A stretch of DNA of 63,466 bases from NCBI RefSeq assembly GCF_025210595.1, contig NZ_JAOARH010000067.1, positions 1-63,466 of the forward strand. The letters run 5' to 3'. Under the pieces are notes generated by a model that was not told the origin of the DNA, made no database searches, and saw only the letters and a list, made by a program, of their open reading frames with translations. The stretch comes from Winogradskyella sp. Lineage in GTDB: Bacteria > Bacteroidota > Bacteroidia > Flavobacteriales > Flavobacteriaceae. The position numbers and the translations under genes are program-made. Of this stretch, positions 2,972 through 22,822 are shown piece by piece (position 1 is the first letter of the stretch; the number at the start of each line of letters is the position of its first letter).

Positions 2972-4205
2972 TATTAGGCACTATATATACGATTTACTTC
3001 TTGAGCAAGGGATTTCAGCAAATACAGCAAAATACCTTAACATGCTCATTCTTTTATTTGGACTTCTATTAATTGCATTTTTAGTTGATTTTATCACCAA
3101 ACGTTTGCTCAGAAAGGTTTCAGCAAGTATTGCTAAACGCACCAAAACTAACTTTGATGACATATTAATTACTAATAAATTACCAAGAAACATTGCTCAT
3201 ATTATTCCGCTTATAATTCTAATAGAATTTGTGCCAGATGTTTTTTCAGACTTCACTTATATTGAAGATATAATAGAAAAAACACTAAAAATTATTGCCA
3301 TAATTCTAACGCTTAGAATTATAAAAAGTTTTTTAGATGCTATTAAAGATTATTTAAAAACATTGGCTCGCTATAAGGACAAACCTATTGATAGTTATAT
3401 CCAAGTCTTTATGATTTTTGCGTGGCTACTTGGTATCTTTTCAATTTTTGCGATTATCACAGGTATTTCCTTTTTAAAGTTTATGACAACACTTGGCGCT
3501 GCCTCTGCTGTTATCCTTTTAATCTTTAAAGATACTATTTTAGGTTTTGTCGCCAGTATTCAAGTCTCTATAAACGATATGGTGAGAATTGGAGATTGGA
3601 TTACTTTTGAAAAATATGGTGCTGATGGTGATGTTACGGAAATTAATTTAGCAACTGTGAAAGTTCAGAATTGGGATAAAACCATAACAACCATACCAAC
3701 TTATGCGCTTATATCTGATTCGTTTAAAAACTGGAGAGGTATGATTAATTCTGGCGGAAGACGTATAAAGCGATCTGTAATAATTAAAACCTCCACTATT
3801 AAGTTTTTGACTAATGACGATATAGAGCGTTTTAAAAAGATTCAATTAGTATATGATTATATTACCACAAGTTCAGAACTAATTAAAAGCTATAATTCAG
3901 AGCATGGCGCAGATAAATCTGTTTTAATAAATGGTCGTAATCTAACTAACTTTGGTGTTTTCAGAAAGTATCTTCAAACATATATGGATAATCATTCTGC
4001 CATAAATAAAGATATGACATTAATGGTTAGGCAATTAGAGCCTACTCCACAAGGTATTCCTATGGAGATATATGCTTTTAGTAGCGATATACGTTGGCAA
4101 AACTACGAATACATAATAGGTGACATCTTTGACCACGTTTTAGCTTCTGTAAAATATTTTGATTTGGAAATTTATGAGCTAGCTGTAGCTTCTTCTAATT
4201 CGTAA
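2964..4205 (+). CDS. Mechanosensitive ion channel, MscS family (YbdG-like)
   Basis: 413 aa. About five membrane helices occupy the first 200 residues. The last, around residues 170-200, is the Gly/Ala-rich pore helix with LGAASAVILLIFKDTILGF. The soluble beta domain follows (GDWITFEKYGADGDVTEI near 213), as in MscS. The length and the long C-terminal part resemble YbdG (miniconductance) channels rather than minimal MscS. It opens under membrane tension to release solutes on osmotic downshock. It is coupled to the preceding DUF3817 gene. Confidence 0.88.
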   Translation: MLSIRHYIYDLLLEQGISANTAKYLNMLILLFGLLLIAFLVDFITKRLLRKVSASIAKRTKTNFDDILITNKLPRNIAHIIPLIILIEFVPDVFSDFTYIEDIIEKTLKIIAIILTLRIIKSFLDAIKDYLKTLARYKDKPIDSYIQVFMIFAWLLGIFSIFAIITGISFLKFMTTLGAASAVILLIFKDTILGFVASIQVSINDMVRIGDWITFEKYGADGDVTEINLATVKVQNWDKTITTIPTYALISDSFKNWRGMINSGGRRIKRSVIIKTSTIKFLTNDDIERFKKIQLVYDYITTSSELIKSYNSEHGADKSVLINGRNLTNFGVFRKYLQTYMDNHSAINKDMTLMVRQLEPTPQGIPMEIYAFSSDIRWQNYEYIIGDIFDHVLASVKYFDLEIYELAVASSNS

Positions 4206-4286
4206 TTTCTCTATTCTATACTTGTTTTTGCTTTTTACTTGAAATAGTTAAAAACTGTTAAACTGTAACACTTTAAAAACTAAGTG

Positions 4287-4314
4287 TGTAACATTTTGTT
4301 TTTATGATCGTCTA
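4287..4314 (+). promoter_or_regulatory. ECF-sigma-type promoter (TGTAAC-N16-CGTCTA)
   Basis: TGTAAC at 4287-4292 and CGTCTA at 4309-4314 are separated by 16 nt. This is the same layout as the element before the ECF sigma gene at 57275 (TGTAAC-N16-CATCTA). It lies 30 nt upstream of a 28-codon ORF. The -35 hexamer and the TCTA core are identical in the two places. It is proposed as a target of that sigma factor and has not been tested. Confidence 0.5.
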
Positions 4315-4344
4315 TTTAGTGTAATCAATTAAAAAACAAATATC

Positions 4345-4431
4345 ATGAGAACTTTAAACAGCAATCAATTAACAAGTACAACGACAGAAACAAGAAGTTA
4401 CACTTGGAACAGCAAAAGACGTTATAGATAA
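4345..4431 (+). CDS. Possible 28-aa peptide ORF
   Basis: ATG at 4345 to TAA at 4429-4431 gives a 28-aa peptide, rich in Thr/Ser/Asn and ending in the basic run SKRRYR. It sits 30 nt downstream of the ECF-type promoter. I do not recognise it. Coding is supported only by its position and an unremarkable start. The transcript could equally be a non-coding RNA. Confidence 0.35.
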   Translation: MRTLNSNQLTSTTTETRSYTWNSKRRYR

Positions 4432-4468
4432 TAGCGTATCATTCATCAATCATTAAATCTTATCAATT

Positions 4469-4540
4469 ATGAAAGTCTTATCAAAAATCGTCAATACATC
4501 TCACAGTTTAGATGATGACTTAGAAAACATTAAATTATGA
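4469..4540 (+). CDS. Possible 23-aa acidic peptide ORF
   Basis: ATG at 4469 to TGA at 4538-4540 gives a 23-aa peptide beginning MKVLSKIVNTS and containing DDDLEN. It follows the 28-aa ORF by 37 nt and precedes the terminator hairpin at 4577. It would be the second member of a two-peptide transcript. There is no recognisable family and low certainty. Confidence 0.3.
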   Translation: MKVLSKIVNTSHSLDDDLENIKL

Positions 4541-4576
4541 ATTGGAATAATCACCCAATAGCGTTAAAATAAAAAA

Positions 4577-4604
4577 CCAACACTATAAAGTGTTGGTTTT
4601 TTTA
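4577..4604. terminator. Bidirectional intrinsic terminator
   Basis: Perfect stem CCAACAC / GTGTTGG (4577-4583 with 4590-4596) and a 6-nt loop. A T-run follows on the plus strand (4597-4603), and the mirrored A-run 4571-4576 gives a T-run on the minus strand. It serves the tiny-ORF transcript and the convergent E1 gene. Confidence 0.8.
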
Positions 4605-4608
4605 TTTG

Positions 4609-6609
4609 TTAATAATTTATCAGAGCTTTAAGAGCTTCTTCAAACTTACCTTTTGCTAGATATTGGGTTTCTAATTGAGGTGCAAAAGGTATTGGCGTTT
4701 GCATACTTGCCACACGCTTAACAGGTGCGTCTAAATACTCAAAGCATTCTTCCATAAGAATAGCAGAAATATCACTAGCTACACCTCCAAATATTGAATC
4801 TTCTTGAAGTATAATAGCTTTACCTGTCTTTTTTACAGAGTTTATAATGCTTTCTTTATCTAAAGGTTGTAGTGTTCTTAAATCAATTAAATCTGCAGAT
4901 ATATCAGAATTATATTCAAGCGTATCTAAAGCCCAATGTACACCAGCACCATAAGTAATTATGGTAACTTCCTCACCTTCTTTTATAAGAGACGCTTTAC
5001 CAAATGGCAAAGTGTAATAATCTGAAGGTACTTCTTGACGAATACTTCTATATAAAGCTTTATGCTCAAAGAATAATACAGGGTTTGGATCGTTAACAGC
5101 AGTTGCTAACAAGCCTTTTGCGTCTGAAGGAAAAGCTGGGTAAACTACTTTTAAGCCTGGCGTTTTTGTAAACCATGCTTCATTAGTCTGTGAGTGAAAA
5201 GGACCAGCCGCTACACCTGCACCACATGGCATTCTTACAACAACATCTGCATGTTGTGACCAACGATAATGTGATTTTGCTAAATAATTTACCACAGGAT
5301 TAAAACCAGAAGTTACAAAATCTGAAAACTGCATCTCTACAACTGCTTTCATACCTGCTATAGACAGTCCCATACCAGCTTCAACAATAGCAGACTCACA
5401 AATAGGTGTGTTTCTTATCCTCTCTTTACCAAATTGATCTAAAAAGCCTTCAGTAATTTTAAAAACACCACCATATTCAGCAATGTCTTGTCCCATTATT
5501 ACTAAATCTTTATGCCTTTCCATAGATTGTTTTAAACCTTCAGAAATAGCATCTACCAATCTTAATTCTTTTGAATTCTTGCTTGGCGTAACTTCTTTAT
5601 ATTCAAAATGTTTATAAACATCATTTAACTCATTAGTTTCATTTGGAATAATATCCTCTTCTGCATAAGCAGATTTTAACGAAGCATCAATTTCTGCTTT
5701 AATTTCAGTAACATATTTTTCATCAATTTCTGCAGATAAGATTTGTTTACTAAATAAATAACTTCTAAAGTTATCTATAGGATCTTTAGTTTTCCACGCC
5801 TCCATTAAATTTTTAGGGACATACTTAGTACCACTAGCTTCTTCGTGTCCACGACGTCTAAATGTTTTAAACTCAATTAAAATTGGTCTTGGTCGTTTTC
5901 TTATGCTTTCTGCTAGTTTTTTTACTTTAGAATAGGTTTCTATAATATTGTTTCCATCTAAAATAAAAGACTCTATGCCATAACCTTTGCCTCTATCGGC
6001 AAGATGCTTACAACGATACTGCTCGCTTGTTGGTGTAGAAAGACCATAACCATTATTTTCTATACAGAAAATTACAGGTAATTGCCAAACAGAAGCCACA
6101 TTTAAAGCTTCGTGAAAATCCCCTTCACTTGTACCACCTTCGCCTGTAAAAACAGCAGTAACCTGTCCATTATTTTTTAAAAGATTTGCTAAAGCAATAC
6201 CATCTGCAACACCAAGTTGTGGTCCTAAATGCGAAATCATTCCTACAATATTATATTCTTGTGTTCCGAAGTGAAACGAACGATCTCTACCTTTTGTAAA
6301 TCCACTTGCTTTTCCTTGCCATTGGCAGAATAAACGGTGCAATGGAATTTCTCGGGTTGTAAACACACCTAAATTTCTGTGCATTGGTAAAATGTACTCG
6401 TTAGGTTTTAATGCCATAGTAACACCAACAGAAATGGCTTCTTGGCCAATACCAGAGAACCATTTTGAGATTTTTCCTTGACGCAATAATATCAGCATTT
6501 TTTCCTCAATTAATCGAGGGCGTAACATGTTATAGTAAAGTTTAAGTAATATTTTATCGCTTAAATTGCGCTTATCGTAGCTTATATTGCTCTTAGTTAT
6601 CGTTGGCAT
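4609..6609 (-). CDS. 2-oxoacid dehydrogenase E1, fused alpha and beta subunits (branched-chain type)
   Basis: 666 aa. The first ~330 residues are the E1 alpha fold with the thiamine-diphosphate region GEGGTSEGDFHEALN followed by CIENNGYGLS. Residues ~345-666 are the beta subunit (VMGQDIAEYGGVF, FFEHKALYR, ILQEDSIFGG). It decarboxylates a 2-oxoacid and passes the acyl group to the E2 lipoyl domain. The fusion is common in Bacteroidota, where it is usually annotated as branched-chain 2-oxoacid dehydrogenase. No E2 or E3 gene is nearby, so the substrate cannot be fixed. A -7 element lies at 6632-6639. Confidence 0.9.
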   Translation of the reverse strand: MPTITKSNISYDKRNLSDKILLKLYYNMLRPRLIEEKMLILLRQGKISKWFSGIGQEAISVGVTMALKPNEYILPMHRNLGVFTTREIPLHRLFCQWQGKASGFTKGRDRSFHFGTQEYNIVGMISHLGPQLGVADGIALANLLKNNGQVTAVFTGEGGTSEGDFHEALNVASVWQLPVIFCIENNGYGLSTPTSEQYRCKHLADRGKGYGIESFILDGNNIIETYSKVKKLAESIRKRPRPILIEFKTFRRRGHEEASGTKYVPKNLMEAWKTKDPIDNFRSYLFSKQILSAEIDEKYVTEIKAEIDASLKSAYAEEDIIPNETNELNDVYKHFEYKEVTPSKNSKELRLVDAISEGLKQSMERHKDLVIMGQDIAEYGGVFKITEGFLDQFGKERIRNTPICESAIVEAGMGLSIAGMKAVVEMQFSDFVTSGFNPVVNYLAKSHYRWSQHADVVVRMPCGAGVAAGPFHSQTNEAWFTKTPGLKVVYPAFPSDAKGLLATAVNDPNPVLFFEHKALYRSIRQEVPSDYYTLPFGKASLIKEGEEVTIITYGAGVHWALDTLEYNSDISADLIDLRTLQPLDKESIINSVKKTGKAIILQEDSIFGGVASDISAILMEECFEYLDAPVKRVASMQTPIPFAPQLETQYLAKGKFEEALKALINY

Positions 6610-8153: not shown

Positions 8154-9095
8154 ATGGCTAAACAAGTCCTTCATATCACCAATGGTAATGCCCTTACGGA
8201 GTATTTAAGAGAATTAGATTTTAAAGACGACATCTTAACATGGCAGGAAATGTTGTGTGAAGGCCCAACGATACCTGCAATAGCTTCCGATAAGTTTTTT
8301 GAAATTAGAAGCAATTTCTTAAAAGAGTATTATGATATTGAAGTTGATAATTATGAGCTTCAGAAAGAATTATCTAAGCTAGATAATATTGATAAATATG
8401 ACGAAATTCACCTTTGGTTTGAATATGACTTATTTTGTCATATTAACTTATTAGGTGTCTTAAACTTATTACATCAAAAAGAAAATAAAAAACCGCTTTA
8501 TCTTATATGTAGTGGCAGAGTTGAAGGCGAAAAAAACCTTAAAGGCCTTGGTGAATTAACACCAGAACAATTACTAGATCATTATAATAAAAGAATTAGA
8601 CTTACCAATAAAGATAAGGAATTGTCGATTACTCTATGGAGAACCTATTGTGGTAAAGATCATAATATACTTAAACCCTATATAGTTACAGAATCTAATT
8701 TTAAATATATGAGCAATTGTTTAAAAGCTCATCTTAAACGTTTTCCACACCAAAAAAGCGGCCTAAGTGTTTTAGAAGATAATATCCTTAGGATTGTGAG
8801 AGATAATGAAATAAAATCTAGGCATCATCTTTTAGGTTATAGCCTTAATTACCAAGGCTATTATGGCTTTGGCGACACCCAACACATAAGATTGATTGAA
8901 AAACTAAGCCTATTTTTTAACGAAGACGAAAAAGGCCTTAAACTCAATAGAAAAGGACATGAAGCTCTATTAAGGCAACATAATTTTGCTTCAGAAATAA
9001 ATAACAACTTAGCCTATGGAGGTGTTGCTCGTTTAGGTTTTCAATTCAGTATAGATAAAAATAAACTTATAAAGACAATATTGCATGTCAATTAA
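8154..9095 (+). CDS. DUF1835 domain protein
   Basis: 313 aa. The N-terminus KQVLHITNGNALTEYL and the following WQEMLCEGPT are characteristic of DUF1835. The C-terminal half, with conserved His/Arg, resembles the companion DUF3658 region. There are no signal peptide or membrane helices, so it is cytosolic. The biochemical role is unknown. It is coupled on both sides: 3 nt after the SUI1 gene and an 11-nt overlap with the nucleoside phosphorylase gene. Context hints at a link to RNA or nucleotide turnover, which is inference only. Confidence 0.83.
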   Translation: MAKQVLHITNGNALTEYLRELDFKDDILTWQEMLCEGPTIPAIASDKFFEIRSNFLKEYYDIEVDNYELQKELSKLDNIDKYDEIHLWFEYDLFCHINLLGVLNLLHQKENKKPLYLICSGRVEGEKNLKGLGELTPEQLLDHYNKRIRLTNKDKELSITLWRTYCGKDHNILKPYIVTESNFKYMSNCLKAHLKRFPHQKSGLSVLEDNILRIVRDNEIKSRHHLLGYSLNYQGYYGFGDTQHIRLIEKLSLFFNEDEKGLKLNRKGHEALLRQHNFASEINNNLAYGGVARLGFQFSIDKNKLIKTILHVN

Positions 9096-9957
9096 AAATT
9101 CAGAATTAATATTAAATCCAGATGGTAGTGTTTATCATTTAAATCTAAAACCAGAGGATATAGCAGATACTATCATCTTTGTTGGTGATCAAGATCGTGT
9201 TGAAAAAATAACTAAACACTTTGATAGTATTGAGTTTAGTACTCAAAAACGAGAGTTTAAAACGCAAACAGGTTATTACAAAGACCGAAGAATTACAGTA
9301 CTTTCTACTGGTATTGGACCAGACAATATAGATATTGTTCTAAATGAGTTAGATGCCTTAGTGAATATAGATTTAAAAACTCGTAAGCCAAAAACAGACC
9401 TTACTAGCTTAAATATTATTAGAATTGGCACATCTGGTTCCTTACAAGCAGATATACCTGTAGATGCTTTTGTTATGAGTACTCATGGTCTTGATATTAA
9501 TGGTATGCTACATTTTTATCAAATAGACGGAATTAGTAATCCAGAAATAGAAGATGCATTTATAGAACACACAAATTGGGATAAAAACAAAGCAAGACCA
9601 ATAATAATTAATAATAGCAAATACTTAGAAAAGTATTTTGATGGCAGTGAGGTTTTTAAAGGTATGACAGGTACAGCTGGCGGATTTTATGGTCCACAAG
9701 GTAGAGTATTGCGTTTGCCATTACATGATGCCAACTTAAATTCTAAATTAGATAATTTTAGCCATAAAGATTTTCGTATTGCAAATTTTGAAATGGAAAC
9801 TTCTGTTATATATGGTTTATCAAAATTATTAGGTCATGAAGCTTTATCATTAAATGCAATTATAGCCAATAGAGCAACAGGAGATTTCAGTGAAAACCCA
9901 AAAAAAACAGTAGAAAAATTAATCATATATGCGTTAGAGCGTATTGTGAATATTTAA
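9085..9957 (+). CDS. Nucleoside phosphorylase (uridine phosphorylase-like)
   Basis: 290 aa of the PNP/UDP family. Visible motifs are IIFVGDQDRVEKI near the N-terminus, STGIGPDNIDIVLNEL, the phosphate-site region IRIGTSGSLQ, and NFEMETSVIYGL, which holds the Met-Glu pair that contacts ribose. It splits a nucleoside with phosphate to base and ribose-1-phosphate, and the best guess for the base is uracil. Last gene of the SUI1-DUF1835 operon. A strong hairpin follows at 9966. Confidence 0.88.
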   Translation: MSIKNSELILNPDGSVYHLNLKPEDIADTIIFVGDQDRVEKITKHFDSIEFSTQKREFKTQTGYYKDRRITVLSTGIGPDNIDIVLNELDALVNIDLKTRKPKTDLTSLNIIRIGTSGSLQADIPVDAFVMSTHGLDINGMLHFYQIDGISNPEIEDAFIEHTNWDKNKARPIIINNSKYLEKYFDGSEVFKGMTGTAGGFYGPQGRVLRLPLHDANLNSKLDNFSHKDFRIANFEMETSVIYGLSKLLGHEALSLNAIIANRATGDFSENPKKTVEKLIIYALERIVNI

Positions 9958-9965
9958 ATAAAAAC

Positions 9966-10011
9966 ATGATAAAGCACTTAATTTAAAAAAAAAGATTAAG
10001 TGCTTTATCAT
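9966..10011. other. Perfect 17-bp inverted repeat with A-rich loop
   Basis: Arms 9966-9982 and 9995-10011 are perfectly complementary over 17 bp and enclose a 12-nt loop of almost only A. On the plus strand no T-run follows, only ATAAAAAATG. On the minus strand a short T-rich tract follows. It lies between the nucleoside phosphorylase stop and the SBP-like gene. It may act as a terminator or as an mRNA-end stabiliser. A GTG start at 10000 would fall inside the hairpin, which argues for the later start at 10048. Confidence 0.75.
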
Positions 10012-10047
10012 ATAAAAAATGAGATTGCTGCTTTAGTGGTAAATGTT

Positions 10048-10902
10048 ATGAAAAAAGTAAATATAGGAGGTGTTCCAGAGCATTTTAATTTAGCCTGGTA
10101 TTTAACCCTAAAAAATGGAGAATACAAAGCTGAAGGTATTAATTTAAGATGGCACGATTATCATGGTGGCACTGGTGCTATGTGCCAAGGTTTGCGCACA
10201 GGAGATATTGATATTGCTGTAATACTTACAGAAGGCATTATAAAAGACATTATAGCAGGAAATCCTTCTAGTATTGTGCAAACTTTTGTTGAGACACCTC
10301 TAATTTGGGGAATTCATGTTGCTGATAAATCTAGTTTTAAAACGATTGAAGATATAAAAGGGACTAGAGCAGCAATAAGCCGTTACGGTTCTGGTTCGCA
10401 TTTAATGGCTTATATCAATGCTAAGAATAATGCATGGAATCTAGAGAAAGACTTAAATTTTGAAGTCATTAAAAACCTTAATGGCGCAGTTGAAGGATTA
10501 ACTTATGGTGCTGCCGATTATTTTTTATGGGAAAAGTTTACCACAAAACCTTTAGTAGATGATGGTGTTTTTAGACGCATAGGAGAATGCCCATCACCTT
10601 GGCCGTGTTTTGTAATTGCTGTAAGGAATGAGTTTATAGAAAACAATGAAGAAGATCTTAAAACCATTCTAGAGACTATAAATTTAACCACTTCTGAATT
10701 TAAATCTATACCAAGTATTGATAAAACAATCTCTAACCGATACGATCAAGAACTCGAAGATGTACAAGAATGGTTATCACTAACGGAATGGTCTCAAGAA
10801 CTCATAGATGAAAAAACCGTTACTAACGTACAAGAAGAACTTTTAAAACTTGATATTATACCAAAAAAGGTAGCATACTCAGAGTTAATCTATAAGGTTT
10901 AA
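10048..10902 (+). CDS. Cytosolic periplasmic-binding-protein-like protein (SBP / NMT1-like fold)
   Basis: 284 aa from ATG 10048 (MKKVNIGGVPEHFNLAW). An upstream GTG at 10000 lies in a hairpin and is unlikely. The pattern KAEGINLRWHDYHGGTG, LRTGDIDIAV, IEDIKGTRAAISRYGSGSH is that of solute-binding proteins of the SsuA/NMT1/THI5 type. There is no signal peptide or lipobox and no permease or ATPase gene nearby, so it is probably not a transporter component. Some cytosolic members of this fold are enzymes (MqnA/MqnD, THI5). The function is open. Confidence 0.75.
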   Translation: MKKVNIGGVPEHFNLAWYLTLKNGEYKAEGINLRWHDYHGGTGAMCQGLRTGDIDIAVILTEGIIKDIIAGNPSSIVQTFVETPLIWGIHVADKSSFKTIEDIKGTRAAISRYGSGSHLMAYINAKNNAWNLEKDLNFEVIKNLNGAVEGLTYGAADYFLWEKFTTKPLVDDGVFRRIGECPSPWPCFVIAVRNEFIENNEEDLKTILETINLTTSEFKSIPSIDKTISNRYDQELEDVQEWLSLTEWSQELIDEKTVTNVQEELLKLDIIPKKVAYSELIYKV

Positions 10903-15078: not shown

Positions 15079-16983
15079 ATGAAAACCTTATCTCAATTAC
15101 TATTCTTTATATGCACAGTATTCGCCTTTGCTCAAGAGGCAAGCAAGATTAAAAATGTTACTGTTTATCTTGATGGTGCAGAAATAACCCGAACAGCACA
15201 TGTAACTTTAAATGCAGGAACTACAGAATTAACGTTCAATAAATTATCCTCTCATATAGAAGAAAGTAGTATTCAAATTTCAGGTTTAAAAAACACATCA
15301 GTATTATCCATTAACTATGGTATTAATTATTTGTCTAAACAAAAACAAAACGACTCAATAATAGCTTTAAAAGAAGTATTGAATAATCTAGATGATAAAA
15401 TTCAGACCGAATACCATCTAATTTCTGGGTATAATGAAGAAATAAGTCTCATACAAAACAACAAACAATTAGGAAACGAAGCCAAAGTTGTAAGCTTAGA
15501 ACAACTTAAAACCTTTGCAACCTATTATAGAACTCGTATTACTGAATTAAAAAAGGCACTACACAAGTCTAATAAAGCAATTATTGATTTTGAAAAAAGC
15601 AAAAATGACATTAAACAACAATTAGCAGAATTTAATGTTGATGACAAAGTACAAACTGGTGAAATTAAGTTAAAGCTTAATAGTGATAAGCCAGAAAATT
15701 TAGATTTAAAGATATCATACAACATAAAAAATGCTGGATGGTTTCCGATATACGATTTAAAAGCAGATAAAATTAATAGTCCTATAACTCTTGAATATAA
15801 AGCACATGTATTTCAAAATTCTGGATGCAATTGGGATGATGTAAAATTAGTTTTATCTACCAGCGACCCAAATACCAATAACGAAAAACCAATTGTTAAT
15901 CCTAAATACTTAAATTTTATAAGTGCCTATAGTAATTACCAATCACATCGTGCCACAAAAAGTTATAATTATAAATACAATCCCCTAGTAAAAACTGTAA
16001 CAGGTGTTATTACAACTGCTTCTGACGGATTGCCGTTACCTGGAGCATCAATAATAGAAAAAGGAACAACTAATGGCACACAAACCGATTTTGATGGTCG
16101 TTATTCCCTAAAAACCACTTCAGGAAACACTCTAGTGTATTCTTATGTTGGTTTGGATTCAGAAGAATTACCTATTCATTCTAGTATAATGAATGTGGCT
16201 TTAAATGAAGGAAATACTTTAGATGAAGTAGTTGTGGTTGGTTATTCAGTTAAATCAACATCTAACGGAATGGCAAATCGAGTACAAGGCATGATTGATA
16301 ATGATTCTTATGATGATGAAGAACCTTATGAAGAACCAATTGACTACATAGCTACAGGAAATATAGTTGAAACAGGTATAGCCAACACACGCTTTAAAAT
16401 TGATAAATCCTATTCCATTCCTTCAGATGGTGATGTTACTGTAATAGAAATTGACAAATTTAACTTACCTGCTAAATATGAGTATTTTGCTGCACCAATA
16501 CTTAACGAAAATGTGTTCTTAACTGCTAAAATTGGAAACTGGGAGCGCTACAATTTATTACCAGCAGAAGCCAATGTTTACTTTGAAGGAAGCTATTCTG
16601 GTAAAACCAATATTAATCCTGGTGCTACCACAGATAGTTTAACAATTTCATTAGGTGTAGATCCAAATATCATTGTAAAACGAAAACAACGAAATGATTT
16701 TAAAAAGACCACTTTTATTGGTAACAATAAAGTTGTTTATAAAGGTTTTGAAATTGAAATACGAAATAATAAACCATCAGAGATAAAATTAACATTAATA
16801 GACAGAATACCTATAACACAAAATAAATCTATTAAACTTGATGATATTGAAACTGGCTCATCAGATTTCGATAAAGAAAAAGGACTCTTAAAATGGATTA
16901 TAAACCTAACTTCAGGCGCAACAGAAAAAGTGAATCACTCCTACTCTGTTAAATACCCTAAAGGCAAACGTATTAATCTTTAA
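15079..16983 (+). CDS. MuiA-like DUF4140/DUF4139 protein with inserted SusC-type N-terminal domain
   Basis: 634 aa. The signal peptide ends near FAFAQ. DUF4140 (KIKNVTVYLDGAEITRTA) is followed by a coiled coil (residues ~90-190) and then DUF4139. The DUF4139 part is interrupted around residues 308-390 by a complete carboxypeptidase-D-regulatory-like domain: GVITTASDGLPLPGASI, then TDFDGRYSL, then YSYVGLDSEE. It ends in LDEVVVVGYS, which is the TonB-box-type motif of SusC receptors. DUF4139 resumes afterwards (GYSIPSDG-like, RIPITQNKSIKL). No beta-barrel is present. It is secreted and of unknown function; the MuiA name comes from a mucoidy inhibitor in other bacteria. Confidence 0.88.
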   Translation: MKTLSQLLFFICTVFAFAQEASKIKNVTVYLDGAEITRTAHVTLNAGTTELTFNKLSSHIEESSIQISGLKNTSVLSINYGINYLSKQKQNDSIIALKEVLNNLDDKIQTEYHLISGYNEEISLIQNNKQLGNEAKVVSLEQLKTFATYYRTRITELKKALHKSNKAIIDFEKSKNDIKQQLAEFNVDDKVQTGEIKLKLNSDKPENLDLKISYNIKNAGWFPIYDLKADKINSPITLEYKAHVFQNSGCNWDDVKLVLSTSDPNTNNEKPIVNPKYLNFISAYSNYQSHRATKSYNYKYNPLVKTVTGVITTASDGLPLPGASIIEKGTTNGTQTDFDGRYSLKTTSGNTLVYSYVGLDSEELPIHSSIMNVALNEGNTLDEVVVVGYSVKSTSNGMANRVQGMIDNDSYDDEEPYEEPIDYIATGNIVETGIANTRFKIDKSYSIPSDGDVTVIEIDKFNLPAKYEYFAAPILNENVFLTAKIGNWERYNLLPAEANVYFEGSYSGKTNINPGATTDSLTISLGVDPNIIVKRKQRNDFKKTTFIGNNKVVYKGFEIEIRNNKPSEIKLTLIDRIPITQNKSIKLDDIETGSSDFDKEKGLLKWIINLTSGATEKVNHSYSVKYPKGKRINL

Positions 16984-17012: not shown

Positions 17013-17041
17013 AAAAACCAATACACTCAGTATTGGTTTTT
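17013..17041 (+). terminator. Intrinsic terminator of the MuiA-like gene
   Basis: Stem AAAAACCAATAC / GTATTGGTTTTT with loop ACTCA, then more T. It lies 30 nt after the stop. Confidence 0.85.
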
Positions 17042-17114: not shown

Positions 17115-17251
17115 AAACCTCAAAGCAAAATGATGTTAGTTTGACCCTAACTTCTGTTAGTTAGGAATGAGTCAAATTCTATATAGAAGCATGTCTAACT
17201 TCTTTATGGTGTTCATACAAATGGATAGACTAATATTTAGCTTTGAGGTTT
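17115..17251. other. Structured intergenic element between convergent genes
   Basis: A 12-bp perfect inverted repeat (AAACCTCAAAGC at 17115-17126, GCTTTGAGGTTT at 17240-17251) bounds 137 nt. Inside is a second hairpin at 17140-17176: TTTGAC+CCTAAC pairs with GTTAGG+GTCAAA with a 5-nt bulge. A palindrome TTCTATATAGAA lies at 17177-17188. CTAACTTCT occurs twice (near 17147 and 17198). The right arm touches the stop codon of the DUF1704 gene. It could be a long-range terminator, a 3'-UTR-derived small RNA or a mobile-element relic. Confidence 0.5.
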
Positions 17252-18411
17252 TATTTTAAGCTTTTCAAAATAAAATCTAAATTAGAATCTTTATTATCAT
17301 TAGTGATATAAGCATCAGTAAAATACTTAGGTTTAACAGCTAACCCTAAATCTATGAGCTTATTTATTGTTGGTATATATTCTTGGCTTACTTTACCAGT
17401 CAATAAAACACCTAAATCCTTATCTGCATTTGCATATTTATAGATATTTCTAATGCCTCTAAGATATAAATGGTCTTTTGTAAAACCACCTCCTCTGTGT
17501 ACACGCAAAGTAATTGCAAATGCTTCGTCTCTATTTAACTTATATTGGTTGTGTAATAGGTGAAACGTATCCGAAAAACTATAACCTTTATTTAAGCTAT
17601 CTACCGCTATTACTCTAAAGGCTAATTCTTTTAAGCGTTCTATGGTTAAGCATCCGCTCATAAATTCAGAATATACCGCCAAACCTTCTTGTGTTTCTAC
17701 ATTGTTTGGCAAACCGTTAGAGAAAATCTTTAAAGGTTGTTCTAAGCCATTAAAAGTCGTTACCAAATGCACACCAATTTCATGATTAGCTAATACTTTA
17801 AGCTGATTTAAACTGTATTTATAGCTCTTTTTTAACACCAAAGTTTGTGTGTTATTTAAAACCATTGCAGCAGCAGAAAGGTTGTTAGATATTTTTAAGT
17901 TGTATTTAAAATCATAACGCTTAGAGAATTCATCAAAATAATCTTTTGCTTCATAGGCACTATACTTCGGAAGCATAATATCATCTTCTTCAGAATCCTC
18001 AAAACGTAAAATAAACTTAGCGTTTTCTATATCTTTTTCAGTTGGTGTTCCATAGCTTTTAAGACTATTAAAGTAAAACTTACGACCTTGGCCTATGGTT
18101 TCTATACATTCTATTAAACCAGAATACTCATAGATAATGTCTTCATATAATTGTCTTATATCTTCATCATCTATACGTTCTAAACGTTGCGAAAAAAACA
18201 AGCGATGCAATTTATAGCCATTAAATCGCATCTTGGGATATTTAAATTGTGGCTCGTAATTGTATTTTGAAGAAAAGAATTTTTTCTTTTCGGCAGCAAT
18301 ATTTAAAGGGTTTATGTAATTGAGTAATTCAATATTTTTAACTAATCGATTAAGATTAGCATCAATATCAAATAAATCTTGAAACTCTTGTGTGGTCTTA
18401 ATTTGAGACAT
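17251..18411 (-). CDS. DUF1704 zincin ('flavohemoglobin expression-modulating QEGLA motif' family)
   Basis: 386 aa. The metallopeptidase signature HEIGVH (an HExxxH form) is followed about 30 residues later by TQEGLAVYSEF, giving the family its QEGLA name. The family includes the eukaryotic tubulin tyrosine carboxypeptidase MATCAP, so a carboxypeptidase-like reaction is a reasonable inference. The bacterial name about flavohemoglobin is historical. There is no signal peptide, so it is cytosolic. It is the last gene of a five-gene operon and overlaps the preceding gene by 1 nt. Confidence 0.88.
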   Translation of the reverse strand: MSQIKTTQEFQDLFDIDANLNRLVKNIELLNYINPLNIAAEKKKFFSSKYNYEPQFKYPKMRFNGYKLHRLFFSQRLERIDDEDIRQLYEDIIYEYSGLIECIETIGQGRKFYFNSLKSYGTPTEKDIENAKFILRFEDSEEDDIMLPKYSAYEAKDYFDEFSKRYDFKYNLKISNNLSAAAMVLNNTQTLVLKKSYKYSLNQLKVLANHEIGVHLVTTFNGLEQPLKIFSNGLPNNVETQEGLAVYSEFMSGCLTIERLKELAFRVIAVDSLNKGYSFSDTFHLLHNQYKLNRDEAFAITLRVHRGGGFTKDHLYLRGIRNIYKYANADKDLGVLLTGKVSQEYIPTINKLIDLGLAVKPKYFTDAYITNDNKDSNLDFILKSLK

Positions 18412-19241
18412 TAGGCTTTAAAACTCTTATAAAATTCGTTAGCGTGCTTTGGTAAAAGTGTTTGCAATTGTTGCTCTACAGCACTAACAACTTCTGGGTA
18501 ATTAATCTGCTTATATTCATCACAGTACACTTTTGCAATTTCGGTTGCCAAAACTAAGGTATTCTTAAAGTTTTTAGTAATGTATTTTAAAAAATATCCA
18601 TTACCTTGAAATGTATCATTAACTTTAGCTGTTTGCTTTATTTTATTAGGTAATACAATACTTTCTAACGATTGTCTCCAAGATTCAATTGAATTACCAA
18701 AACGCATATTATCTATATTAGAAGTGCCTAAATTCCAAGTTGGCACTTCCCTATCCCAACGTTGCCAATTATAACTATGCATATCATAAACTACACATAC
18801 TCCAAACTTTTCTTCTAATTTTGAAATTAAAGCATGTACAACTTTATAAAAATTTAAGTGTTTTTGAAGACTTAGTTCTTTTTCTTTATCTGGTAAAGGT
18901 TGCCTCCATAATTGTTTTCCCCAAGCGGTATCAAAAACTGCATTTTCTGGATCGCGATTTAGATCATATTCAAAACGAGAGTCACAACCAGCAATAACAA
19001 TAGGATGCGATATTATCATATTTTTGGTTTCAGGATCTTCTTCGTACCAACGCTCATATTCGGTATGCAAACAATTGCCCCAAAGCGATTTTCTAAACTG
19101 ATGCCCATCATGTACTGCACCACAAGCATAGTGCACATATTTATCAATCTTTATTGTAAAAGAATAATCTTCAGTAACAGCATGAAACGTTTCTTCGGTT
19201 TCAATTTTAGAAATAATAGATTTTATAGAGAGACGTTGCAT
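18411..19241 (-). CDS. N-formylglutamate amidohydrolase-family protein
   Basis: 276 aa. Signatures are CGAVHDGHQFR near the N-terminus, SRFEYDLNRDPENAVF, YDMHSYNWQ and ATEIAKVYCDE, all conserved in the HutG-like (FGase) zinc amidohydrolase fold. Family members hydrolyse N-formyl-glutamate or related amides. No histidine-degradation genes are here, and the neighbours are an ATP-grasp ligase and a DUF1704 zincin. A role in processing an amide-linked metabolite or peptide is more likely than Hut catabolism. It overlaps both neighbours by 1 nt. Confidence 0.87.
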   Translation of the reverse strand: MQRLSIKSIISKIETEETFHAVTEDYSFTIKIDKYVHYACGAVHDGHQFRKSLWGNCLHTEYERWYEEDPETKNMIISHPIVIAGCDSRFEYDLNRDPENAVFDTAWGKQLWRQPLPDKEKELSLQKHLNFYKVVHALISKLEEKFGVCVVYDMHSYNWQRWDREVPTWNLGTSNIDNMRFGNSIESWRQSLESIVLPNKIKQTAKVNDTFQGNGYFLKYITKNFKNTLVLATEIAKVYCDEYKQINYPEVVSAVEQQLQTLLPKHANEFYKSFKA

Positions 19242-19576
19242 TATAGAGATTTAAATAAGCGTTCTAAAGATTTAAGCATATTTCTTTCATTAATACTGAA
19301 ATTGCCATCAGAAAAAAACAAGGTTTTTATGTCTTTCAGAAGTGTCTCAATATCATTTTTTTGGTAATTGTGTTGTTTTAAACTGGTCATTATTTTTTGA
19401 ATACTTTGATAATCATTGTCTTTATCAAACTCATTATGTATTTCTTGAAAGGTGTTCATATTAACCTTAGAAATAATGATATTTCGCTCATTGTTGTCTT
19501 CTTTAAAATCTGAATGAGCAGCAAATAATAATACATAAGCTATAAGTTGTTCTCTAGTCCAATTCTTTGTTTTCAT
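19241..19576 (-). CDS. Small TerB-like helical protein
   Basis: 111 aa and predicted all-helical. The start REQLIAYVLLFAAHSDF and the later LFFSDGNFSINERNML resemble the TerB/DjlA fold, in which acidic loops bind metal. The similarity is weak by eye. It lies between the rhodanese (1-nt gap) and the amidohydrolase (1-nt overlap), so it is part of the operon. Confidence 0.65.
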   Translation of the reverse strand: MKTKNWTREQLIAYVLLFAAHSDFKEDNNERNIIISKVNMNTFQEIHNEFDKDNDYQSIQKIMTSLKQHNYQKNDIETLLKDIKTLFFSDGNFSINERNMLKSLERLFKSL

Positions 19577-19577
19577 A

Positions 19578-20384
19578 TTAATTTATTAGAGTTCCATATT
19601 CTGTCCATGAGCCATCATAAACAACAAGATTATTAAAGCCACATTGTGTAGCTCCTAAAGCTAAAATACATGCAGTTATACCAGATCCACAACTAAATAC
19701 CATCGTTGTTGTTTCACCTACTAATTTATCAAAGATTTTTAAAAGTTGATCTTTAGATTTTAGAATATTGCCATTAAATAATTCTGTATATGGTAAATTT
19801 TTAGAATTTGGAATGCTTCCTCGTCGTAAGCCTTGCCTTGGTTCATCTATTAAGCATTTAAATCTAGCTTCAGATCTAGCATCTAATATTAAAGTCTTAG
19901 AATCTTTTGAAAATTGATTAATGCCTATAAAATTGGTCATTAATTCTGGCCTAAAAACTGCCTTAAAGTTTCCTTTTGCTAGGTGTTCTTTTTTATAAGG
20001 TTCAATTGAAAAACCATGTTGTTTCCATTCGGGCAAACCACCATCTAAAACTGCTACATTATTAAAACCAAAAGTTTTAAAAACCCACCAAGCTCTAGCA
20101 CTAGAATATATACCTTTATCATCATAAACCACGATAAAAGAGTCGTTATTTATTCCTAAAATTTTAGCTTCTTTTTCAAACTGTTCAATACTAGGCAATG
20201 TGCTTGGAAATCTAGCACTAGTATCGCTAAACTTATATTTTATATCAAAAAATCTGGCATTAGGTATTCTTGTTGAATTACTGTCAATAGCCTTATTGAT
20301 AGTAGCATCAAGTATAACTACATTCTCAGCTTCTTTGTTAGCATATAACCATTCTACAGAAACTAATGATTTATTGAAAGACAT
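19578..20384 (-). CDS. Sulfurtransferase with two rhodanese domains
   Basis: 268 aa. The N-terminal inactive rhodanese domain (LVSVEWLYANK, GLPEWKQHGF) and the C-terminal active domain (LILDARSEARF, PGxG-like SIPNSKNLPY) are both present. The active-site loop is CGSGITACILALG, and the Cys is present. It moves sulfane sulfur from thiosulfate or 3-mercaptopyruvate to an acceptor. It is second in the operon, 8 nt after the ATP-grasp gene. Confidence 0.9.
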   Translation of the reverse strand: MSFNKSLVSVEWLYANKEAENVVILDATINKAIDSNSTRIPNARFFDIKYKFSDTSARFPSTLPSIEQFEKEAKILGINNDSFIVVYDDKGIYSSARAWWVFKTFGFNNVAVLDGGLPEWKQHGFSIEPYKKEHLAKGNFKAVFRPELMTNFIGINQFSKDSKTLILDARSEARFKCLIDEPRQGLRRGSIPNSKNLPYTELFNGNILKSKDQLLKIFDKLVGETTTMVFSCGSGITACILALGATQCGFNNLVVYDGSWTEYGTLIN

Positions 20385-20392
20385 TCAATTTA

Positions 20393-21430
20393 TTATGCTT
20401 CTTCAACCGTTTTACGTAATCTTGCACGCCTATCAAAAGCTTGTAACTGGTCTAATACTTTACTTTCTAAAAAGTCAATCACTTTCTCTTCAACTCTAGT
20501 TTTAGATTTATAAACTTTATTGATATACGTAATACCACCTGGCGACATAACATTGACTTCTACTAACTTTCCGCCAATAACATCTATACCTACAAAATAC
20601 AACCCATCTTTAACCAGTTTTGGTCCTATTTGTTTGCAAAGTGCTTTTTCTGCTTTTGTTAAGGAGTGCTTTTGAACACTACCGCCTGCTGTAACGTTAG
20701 AACGATGGTCATCAGATCCTGGAACGCGTTTCATAGCGCCTACAGGTTCACCATTAAGCATTAATATTCTTACATCACCTTGGTCAGCACCTTCAATATA
20801 ATCCTGTAGAATAACATAATTGGAAGACCCATCAGAACTATTAATATAAAAATCTAGCAGTGAATTAATATTACTCATCGCAGATTTTTCTATAAGGATA
20901 ACTCCAGATCCACCAAAACCATTCAATGGTTTAATAATCATTTTATCTGCTTTAGATTCCTTAATCTGCTTAATGAGATAATTTTTGTTTTTTGACACAT
21001 GCGTATTAGGAATAATATTACTGTGTGCATCACCAAAAGCAGCTGTATATAATTTATTATTAGCCTCTCTCATACCTTCGAGAGAATTTATAATAAAAAC
21101 ATCATCCTTAACAGAATCTAAGAAGTTAAGCATTATAGGATCTAAAGGTGGGTTTGCTCTAAAGAAAATAGCATCAAAACCTGCTAAGGGTAACATCTCT
21201 TCTCTAAGCTTTGCTTTGTTATAAAATGATTTTAGTGAAGAAGGTACTTTATCCATACGACCAATAACATTACAAAACGCATTGGTAACACTATCTCTTA
21301 TTGTAAGATTAGCAGGTATACATGTTGCAACGCCATGACCTCTTTTTACACATTCTTTTATTAAAGCTAAACTGGTATCATTTTCTGGGTCTATTGATTC
21401 CCAAGGATACATTATAAAACAAACATTCAT
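20393..21430 (-). CDS. GshB-like ATP-grasp ligase (glutathione synthetase family)
   Basis: 345 aa. The N-terminal pre-ATP-grasp domain starts MNVCFIMYPWESIDPENDTS. The ATP-grasp core shows IIKPLNGFGGSGVILI, QDYIEGADQGDVRIL, and the metal-binding EVNVMSPGGITYINKVY near the end. These are close to proteobacterial GshB, which joins gamma-glutamylcysteine and glycine. No gshA is nearby, so the substrate could be a different peptide. It is the first gene of the operon gshB-like / rhodanese / TerB-like / amidohydrolase / DUF1704. I see no clear -7 box before it. Confidence 0.85.
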   Translation of the reverse strand: MNVCFIMYPWESIDPENDTSLALIKECVKRGHGVATCIPANLTIRDSVTNAFCNVIGRMDKVPSSLKSFYNKAKLREEMLPLAGFDAIFFRANPPLDPIMLNFLDSVKDDVFIINSLEGMREANNKLYTAAFGDAHSNIIPNTHVSKNKNYLIKQIKESKADKMIIKPLNGFGGSGVILIEKSAMSNINSLLDFYINSSDGSSNYVILQDYIEGADQGDVRILMLNGEPVGAMKRVPGSDDHRSNVTAGGSVQKHSLTKAEKALCKQIGPKLVKDGLYFVGIDVIGGKLVEVNVMSPGGITYINKVYKSKTRVEEKVIDFLESKVLDQLQAFDRRARLRKTVEEA

Positions 21431-21496: not shown

Positions 21497-22822
21497 TTAT
21501 TTTACTTCGTCATAATTATCGTCCCATTCTTTGGGTTTTGGATTATCATGAAGCTTTCCTATAGATTTTGCTACTATCATAGATACTGTAGCATCTCCAG
21601 TAACATTTACAACGGTTCTGCACATATCTAGAGGACGATCTACTGCAAATATTAAAGCCAATCCTATTGGTAATAATTCCGCAGGAAATCCAATAGATTC
21701 TAAAACAATAACAAGCATTACCATACCTGCACTTGGCACAGCTGCACTACCAATAGAAGCTAAAAGTGCTGTTAAAACAATAACTAATTGGTTTGTAAAC
21801 GTTAATCCATCTGGCCAAATTACCTGCATAATAAATACTGCTGCAATACCTTGATAGAGGCTCGTACCATCCATATTTACGGTTGCACCAACAGGTAATA
21901 CAAAACCAGATACTTCTTTGTCTACACCAAGATGTTCCTCTACACGCTCCATGGTTACAGGTAAAGTAGCAGCACTACTACTAGTAGAAAATGCTAATAA
22001 TTGTGCTGGACTAATTTTGTTTAAAAACCACATTGGAGACTTTTTGGTAAAGACCTTTACAAGAATTAAATAAAAGCAAATCATTAATATTAGGCCTCCA
22101 ACAACACAAAATGCATATTGTAATAGTTTGAGTAGTATTTCAGTATCATCAAAAGCTATAATAACATTTGCCATAAGTGCAAAAACGGCATAAGGTGCAA
22201 AAAGCATAATTAGATCCACCATTTTCATGACGACTTCATTGAGTGAATCAAAAATATCTATCATAGGTTTGGCCTTCTTTTCTCCAATTAAAAGCAAACA
22301 AATACCAACAAAAAGTGCAAAGAATATAACCTGAAGCATTTTAGCTTCACCCATAGCTTGAAAAATATTACTCGGAAAAATATCTACTAATGCTTGCAAA
22401 GGACCAGCATCTTGTTGTGCACTTGCTTTAGCCAATTTATCGGTTACACCAGCATCGTTGGCGTATTTCATTTTTATTTTAGCAATAGTCTCTTCTGGCA
22501 TACCAGTACCTGGTTTTACTACATTAACAATAGATAAACCTATTACTATAGCCACAAGTGTTGTTCCTATATAAATAGAAATGGTTCTTAAACCCATATC
22601 TCTAATCTTTGAGATATCTTTTAGGTCTGATATACCTTTAATAAGTGAAGCCAAAATTAATGGAACTGCAATTAATTTTAGAAGATTAATAAATATTGTA
22701 CCAAAAGGCGCAATCCAATCTGTTACAAACTGTTGTCCATTAACGGAGTTCATAACAAATCCAAATACGATACCGAGTACCATACCTATAATAATCTTCC
22801 AATGTAGTGCGAGTTTTTTCAT
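21497..22822 (-). CDS. Dicarboxylate/amino acid:cation symporter (DAACS)
   Basis: 441 aa membrane carrier. It starts at ATG 22822 with MKKLALHWKIIIGMVLGIVFG. The serine-rich hairpin STSSSAATLPV, the NMDGTSLYQ substrate/sodium site and the DRPLDMCRTVVNVTGD motif are all intact. It imports glutamate, aspartate or C4 dicarboxylates with Na+ or H+. It lies downstream of aroC with a 76-nt gap that holds a repeated palindrome. Confidence 0.93.
   Translation of the reverse strand: MKKLALHWKIIIGMVLGIVFGFVMNSVNGQQFVTDWIAPFGTIFINLLKLIAVPLILASLIKGISDLKDISKIRDMGLRTISIYIGTTLVAIVIGLSIVNVVKPGTGMPEETIAKIKMKYANDAGVTDKLAKASAQQDAGPLQALVDIFPSNIFQAMGEAKMLQVIFFALFVGICLLLIGEKKAKPMIDIFDSLNEVVMKMVDLIMLFAPYAVFALMANVIIAFDDTEILLKLLQYAFCVVGGLILMICFYLILVKVFTKKSPMWFLNKISPAQLLAFSTSSSAATLPVTMERVEEHLGVDKEVSGFVLPVGATVNMDGTSLYQGIAAVFIMQVIWPDGLTFTNQLVIVLTALLASIGSAAVPSAGMVMLVIVLESIGFPAELLPIGLALIFAVDRPLDMCRTVVNVTGDATVSMIVAKSIGKLHDNPKPKEWDDNYDEVK

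Follow-up and report, generated by a model that had tools for sequence, protein, structure and literature searches.

The 63,466-nucleotide stretch of Winogradskyella sp. DNA analyzed here (contig NZ_JAOARH010000067.1, assembly GCF_025210595.1; hereafter the window) contains five closely packed minus-strand open reading frames (ORFs), spaced by 8 nt and 1 nt and then overlapping by 1 nt twice, just as an initial annotation of the sequence had described them. In order of transcription, they encode an ATP-grasp protein, a rhodanese, a 111-residue protein, an amidohydrolase of the FGase (N-formylglutamate amidohydrolase) family, and a metallopeptidase of the MATCAP family, the current Pfam name for DUF1704 (Table 1). 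The ATP-grasp ligase, the FGase-family amidohydrolase and the metallopeptidase form a real, conserved three-enzyme module, with the rhodanese and the 111-residue protein as optional partners.

Table 1. Features of the operon and its downstream flank, in window coordinates.
Feature	Position	Strand	Length or residues	Remarks
ATPg1, GshB/RimK-like ATP-grasp ligase, type I	20393-21430	-	345 aa	core
Double rhodanese, mercaptopyruvate-sulfurtransferase-like	19578-20384	-	268 aa	accessory
111-aa protein, possibly TerB-like	19241-19576	-		accessory
FGase-family amidohydrolase	18411-19241	-	276 aa	core
MATCAP/DUF1704 metallopeptidase	17251-18411	-	386 aa	core
MATCAP HExxxH motif	17767-17784	-	H210, E211, H215	
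MATCAP third ligand, in QEG motif	17686-17688	-	E242	
Candidate terminator-like hairpin	17013-17041	+		consensus scan, + strand scored; use by operon putative

Pfam bore out four of the original domain calls: ATP-grasp (GSH-S), rhodanese, FGase and MATCAP/DUF1704. The ATP-grasp protein carries the GSH-S domains PF02951 and PF02955 and scored 454.8 bits against NF009110 (cutoff, 408). It also exceeded the cutoff of NF003573, a glutathione synthase equivalog (278.5 versus 272 bits), fell below that of TIGR01380 (232.8 versus 299.05 bits), and has E. coli GshB as its best solved relative. PF00581 matches two stretches of the rhodanese, in whose translation a CGSGITA loop is visible; this protein scored 208.3 bits against NF008557, the 3-mercaptopyruvate sulfurtransferase equivalog, below the cutoff of 250. 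The FGase-family protein matched PF05013 at 47.7 bits (cutoff, 28.9) and was the single match to this family in the whole Winogradskyella genome; its score against the HutG equivalog TIGR02017, 18.6 bits, was far under the cutoff of 278.75. It retains the H-x-G, SR-x-x-x-DLNR and D-x-HS elements, as found in the one HutG-type protein used for comparison (from L142).

The metallopeptidase matched PF08014 at 330.6 bits (cutoff, 27) and scored 313.3 bits against the MATCAP (QEGLA) family TIGR02421, under a cutoff of 338.65 that a fused homolog described below (locus L017) passed with 365.7 bits. Its H210, E211, H215 and E242 are invariant across 13 aligned MATCAP sequences. When its profile was compared with solved structures (E up to 0.1), only KIAA0895L was matched (7z5g, 7z6s), and the window motifs correspond to HExxxH and EEG in that protein, as described in excerpts of a published report (PMC10499314). 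Bacterial MATCAP relatives carry the NCBIfam label 'flavohemoglobin expression-modulating'. The initial annotation had also called the 111-residue protein TerB-like. The window protein had no Pfam or NCBIfam match above cutoff and none to TerB (PF05099), and no TerB structure was among the 12 weak matches of its profile to solved structures; 7 of its 19 aligned relatives did match TerB weakly (best E = 6e-4), so that TerB membership is possible but weak.

To examine how these genes are inherited, we surveyed 395 Bacteroidota genomes, 19 of which encode MATCAP. A strong match to NF009110 (≥396 bits; 17 exceeded the cutoff of 408 and one reached 396.5) was present in 18 of the 19 MATCAP genomes versus none of the other 376 (Fisher's exact p = 3e-30, kinship among genomes being ignored). 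In all 18, the ATP-grasp gene starts 1.0-3.2 kb from the MATCAP start, and two genomes (G079 and G095) have a second ATP-grasp copy no more than 3.6 kb from MATCAP. Two genomes without MATCAP (G216 and G321) had weaker NF009110 matches (194 and 215 bits), and a sampled genome of the same genus as the window's (G350) has neither gene. In an order-level sample, FGase was found in 16 of 148 genomes; it lies at the locus in 12 of the 13 MATCAP genomes, and the thirteenth (G039) has an AstE-type protein instead.

A scan of named genomes returned at least 567 MATCAP relatives. We analyzed the best 80 loci, which belong to flavobacteria or unplaced Bacteroidia by their record titles and include other Winogradskyella as the closest named relatives (MATCAP identity up to 90%). 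Genes were scored as present within 6.5 kb upstream of MATCAP, and four of the 80 loci have less than 6 kb of upstream sequence. The ATP-grasp gene was upstream in 76 of 80 loci and the FGase gene in 77, and among the 76 named-genome loci with at least 6 kb, 73 had both upstream. The rhodanese gene occurred in 32 of the 80 and the 111-residue gene in 25. These last two are a single ORF in seven loci (L040, L044, L053, L084, L091, L101 and L103), so they look like mutual partners that are accessory to the other three. The neighborhood whose co-occurrence the initial annotation had suggested checking is thus conserved, and a conserved unit of all five genes is rejected on the low counts for the rhodanese and the 111-residue gene. 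Nor can the sulfur supply once assigned to the rhodanese be a general step, because so few loci encode one. What is conserved is the set of three: the GshB-like ligase of the ATP-grasp fold, the amidohydrolase of the FGase family and the MATCAP/DUF1704 metallopeptidase.

We read the locus in 25 genomes, the window genome (G000) and 24 others, and found two principal arrangements: 14 loci are type I, eight are type II, two are hybrids and one (L123) has MATCAP alone. Type I loci consist of ATPg1, FGase and MATCAP1. FGase and MATCAP form a single ORF in 7 of the 14 (L017, L018, L019, L021, L022, L024 and L125) and are separate in the other seven, the window included. In type II loci, an N-terminal domain of about 235 residues is joined to MATCAP2 beside a second ligase, ATPg2; the neighboring gene encodes FGase in five (L126, L128, L129, L130 and L133) and an AstE/AspA-family protein in three (L025, L131 and L132, in the last on the opposite strand). 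The hybrids (L016 and L020) combine ATPg1, FGase, MATCAP2 and ATPg2. The type II ligase of L016 scored 15.3 against the TTL family (PF03133), under its cutoff of 20.1.

The type II N-terminal domain was detected by BLAST in seven of the eight type II loci; in the eighth, L133, the protein has the right length and gave no match. In L016 and L025, this domain had no Pfam match. A profile of the domain could be aligned with that of FGase across 204 columns (96.7%, E = 3e-10), and control comparisons with ATP-grasp and MATCAP profiles gave 0.1%. In the alignment, the residues of the conserved FGase motifs are missing from it. Both types thus seem to have an FGase-like domain attached to MATCAP, one that has apparently decayed in type II, where FGase or AstE comes as a separate protein. 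Both types can also occur in one genome. Five genomes (G519, G524, G542, G550 and G564) have more than one MATCAP gene, with forms of about 390 and 615 residues side by side, which suggests that neither type merely duplicates the other.

Beyond Bacteroidota, 127 plasmid records contained MATCAP relatives, and Sinorhizobium accounted for 79. Twelve proteobacterial plasmid loci, picked for variety, were opened, and ten contained the trio: those of Mesorhizobium, three Sinorhizobium meliloti strains, Shinella, Aminobacter, Pararhizobium, 'Roseateles' (a record marked unverified) and two Photobacterium. The trio was incomplete in the remaining two, from Vibrio (L118) and Pseudoalteromonas (L147). 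In S. meliloti 1021, the trio is on pSymB. The rhizobial-type loci have ATPg2 and the type II order, an arrangement that is thus also found in Alphaproteobacteria. The Photobacterium loci are type I, with FGase and MATCAP fused and ATPg1 directly before the fusion. Two MATCAPs without a nearby ligase or FGase, in L123 (5931-7205, minus strand, 424 aa) and L147 (5419-6699, plus strand, 426 aa), apparently represent a third, free-standing group.

Directly upstream of the window operon lies an SDF symporter gene (21497-22822). The best solved relative of its product is an aspartate transporter, and the protein retains an LDMxRTxVNVTGD segment, which has a role in binding acidic amino acids. An SDF gene is also upstream in 63 of the 80 loci and, together with the two hydrolases, this placement would fit salvage, in which the operon, symporter included, takes up acidic or formylated peptides and breaks them down. 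We regard this as improbable: an ATP-consuming ligase is out of place in simple salvage, the symporter was not found in seven type I loci (L017, L018, L019, L021, L022, L024 and L125), and it pairs with aroC regardless of MATCAP. We compared 60 sampled family members for this pairing; four genomes had no match for one of the genes, and eight rows were left out as second copies (36-39% identity) in genomes already having a better match. Of the 29 genomes with MATCAP, 26 had aroC and SDF within 1 kb of each other, as did 19 of the 27 without it. Many loci encode a protein of about 440 aa upstream; those in L017, L021 and L022 are beta-lactamase-family serine hydrolases, and that in L024 is a radical-SAM protein. 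The symporter was accordingly rejected as a fourth member; it goes with aroC rather than with the trio.

Other neighbors were noted in passing. In L017, the serine hydrolase gene (4175-5497; similar-sized proteins are encoded in L021 and L022) lies 2 nt upstream of the ligase gene, and a flavoprotein oxidoreductase and a TANGO2-family protein are encoded downstream (8528-10513). In the window, the hairpin sits between the convergent 3' ends of the MATCAP gene and a plus-strand gene (15079-16983) whose 634-residue product, as translated, has a middle part resembling an inserted carboxypeptidase-regulatory or plug-type segment. Promoter-like sites were no more common than in shuffled sequence (28 versus a mean of 34.5).

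The resemblance of the ligase to GshB raises the question of whether the operon belongs to plain glutathione biosynthesis, with the ATP-grasp protein acting as GshB and the other genes degrading or recycling glutathione. The NF003573 score and the structural relationship to the E. coli enzyme are in favor of this, as is the presence of one glutamate-cysteine ligase (gshA) family, PF04107, in 6 of the 25 MATCAP genomes. The same family is missing from the other 19 and the second gshA family, PF04262, from all 25. Neither had a match anywhere in the window genome, which is 96.94% complete, in agreement with the gshA absence reported initially. Furthermore, the TIGR01380 cutoff was not reached, both plain GshB-like matches in the 395 genomes occur without MATCAP, and the strong GSH-S match is the gene beside MATCAP in 24 of the 25 genomes (other GSH-S matches, where present, reach at most 79 bits). 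With neither gshA family found here, TIGR01380 missed and the ATP-grasp gene tied to MATCAP, glutathione synthesis by this operon is unlikely, and we rejected it as the principal explanation; the full pathway of synthesis and recycling appears highly improbable. The initial annotation had named two outcomes that would speak against its proposal, a neighborhood not conserved in related genomes and a plain GshB with gshA elsewhere in the genome; because the neighborhood is conserved and no gshA was found in the window genome, neither applies.

ATP-grasp enzymes of the GshB/RimK type attach amino acids through amide bonds, and FGase and AstE/AspA proteins hydrolyze N-acyl acidic amino acids. All eight type II loci adjoin a gene for FGase or for an AstE/AspA-family protein, and an N-acyl acidic amino acid is therefore indicated. 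From this point we infer the activities of these particular proteins, their substrate, and the direction and order of the steps. The explanation we favor, tentatively and with somewhat less than even confidence, is that the trio is an amide make-and-break module whose substrate is most likely a small N-acylated glutamate or aspartate peptide, not glutathione. The ATP-grasp enzyme would spend ATP to attach an amino acid to a short acidic substrate at a free carboxyl group. As a zinc carboxypeptidase related to the enzyme that acts on tubulin tails, the MATCAP domain would strip the C-terminal residue again, and the FGase domain, or the AstE/AspA-family deacylase in some genomes, would split what is left, an acidic amino acid with a formyl-, acetyl- or succinyl-like N-acyl group. 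The simplest substrate for all three would be an N-acylated acidic peptide of short length, extended by the ligase and dismantled by the hydrolases. The add-and-remove scheme of the initial annotation thus survives as the best account for one ligase and two hydrolases, and not for all five genes.

Several observations weigh against this explanation. No enzyme that makes the N-acyl group belongs to the conserved unit in the loci read, and a maker and its breakers in one operon would amount to a futile cycle unless controlled. MATCAP also occurs without the ligase: alone, as a 424-residue protein, in the one Bacteroidota exception (G313, locus L123); alone, with 426 residues, in Pseudoalteromonas (L147); and fused to FGase in Vibrio (L118), with no ATP-grasp gene in the 13 kb read. 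In three of the 80 loci (L083, L094 and L100; about 6.5-9.1 kb), the symporter gene immediately precedes MATCAP, and the ATP-grasp and FGase genes, absent upstream, are lost or moved. The affinities of the ligase to glutathione synthases discussed above count on this side too.

The most credible of the alternatives, which we still hold to be unlikely, is a writer-eraser system for protein tails, in which the ATP-grasp enzyme extends the C-terminus of a protein with residues such as glutamate or tyrosine and MATCAP takes these off, by analogy with TTL/TTLL and MATCAP on tubulin or RimK and RimB on ribosomal protein S6. The ligase and MATCAP are co-inherited, as would be expected of such a pair. 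According to excerpts of PMC10499314, the known MATCAPs work on the tails of proteins, from which they strip polyglutamate, the human relatives being metallocarboxypeptidases of which TMCP2 removes, and prefers, C-terminal glutamate; in bacteria, RimK and RimB pair a ligase with a protease and are also known as a fusion, as described in part of PMC11957791. The loci encode no conserved protein that could serve as substrate, and the ligase is closest to GshB, an enzyme that acts on a small peptide. FGase and AstE/AspA proteins, moreover, are small-molecule hydrolases by family, and FGase is fused to MATCAP in half of the type I loci. That the trio is a bacterial writer-eraser for either a protein or a peptide tail, with ATP-grasp writing and MATCAP erasing, strikes us as rather unlikely; if true, it would mean that the tubulin tyrosination and glutamylation machinery rests on an enzyme pairing older than tubulin modification.

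A lead on expression comes from Photobacterium damselae RM-71. In the sections available of a report on its response to salt (PMC10308900), A0J47_RS17020 ('GshB') was 38.42-fold and A0J47_RS17025 ('QEGLA motif protein') 27.51-fold upregulated at 1% versus 3% NaCl, and RimK was upregulated 52.24-fold in the same low-salt table (Table 2 of that report). The salt-regulated 'GshB' is discussed there as a glutathione synthetase, with the QEGLA/MATCAP protein at the locus tag that follows. These two genes are very probably an operon of ATPg1 and the FGase-MATCAP fusion, because their tags are consecutive and two Photobacterium loci have ATPg1 directly before the fusion. The increase of RimK, the GshB-like protein and the QEGLA protein at low salt, as given in that portion of the report, hints that ATP-grasp ligases are linked to hypo-osmotic adjustment.

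The trio might also work in one direction, as a peptide maturation pathway in which the ligase builds on an N-acyl-protected acidic amino acid, FGase deprotects the product and MATCAP trims its C-terminus to yield the finished compound. LysX/LysK, a carrier- or protection-based pathway, is the model for this idea. The ligase and hydrolases are encoded together, and the joint induction of both Photobacterium genes listed in PMC10308900 is easier to reconcile with a one-way route than with a cycle. The loci read share no additional enzyme of biosynthesis and no carrier protein or exporter, and we judge one-way maturation distinctly unlikely.

MATCAPs are known as microtubule regulators. Their tie in bacteria to one ATP-grasp ligase and an N-acyl-amino-acid-type hydrolase, seen in two gene arrangements and two phyla, offers a handle on the bacterial substrate. 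It is also a warning that a glutathione synthetase label in such loci may belong to an enzyme with another product. We found no paper on the bacterial trio, and no function assigned to it, among the open-license PMC literature, and an earlier description is possible; Iyer and colleagues reportedly surveyed ATP-grasp amidoligase operons in 2009, with ligases beside peptidases of unrelated folds.

Known systems offer four comparisons. Like GshB, its nearest solved relative, the trio ligase has the two-domain PF02951 and PF02955 structure; unlike GshB, it falls in the separate NF009110 family, is tied to MATCAP, and occurs in a genome in which no gshA was found. The RimK-RimB system, which serves the glutamylation of ribosomal protein S6 and its reversal, likewise pairs an ATP-grasp ligase with a co-encoded hydrolase of different fold that undoes its product, and hybrids exist (excerpts of PMC11957791); for the trio, the undoing is putative. 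The trio differs from that pair in its GshB-like ligase, in its protease (a MATCAP metallopeptidase, whereas RimB is a retropepsin) and in having an FGase/AstE-type deacylase as a constant third part. The TTL/TTLL-MATCAP (TMCP) system employs the same peptidase family, with HExxxH and a glutamate ligand, and TTL, the ligase opposing MATCAP on tubulin tails, has an ATP-grasp fold, but the trio has no tubulin substrate and its ligase is GshB-like. In the mammalian N-acetylaspartylglutamate (NAAG) cycle, the ligase RIMKLA/B, the zinc enzyme glutamate carboxypeptidase II and aspartoacylase, an AspA-family protein, share one N-acyl dipeptide. A RimK-like ligase, a zinc carboxypeptidase and an AspA-family deacylase would follow the same logic as the trio, although the carboxypeptidase fold differs, FGase replaces AspA in most loci, and the conserved unit has no acyltransferase. 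The trio is a variant on a known theme, that of ATP-grasp ligases paired with hydrolases.

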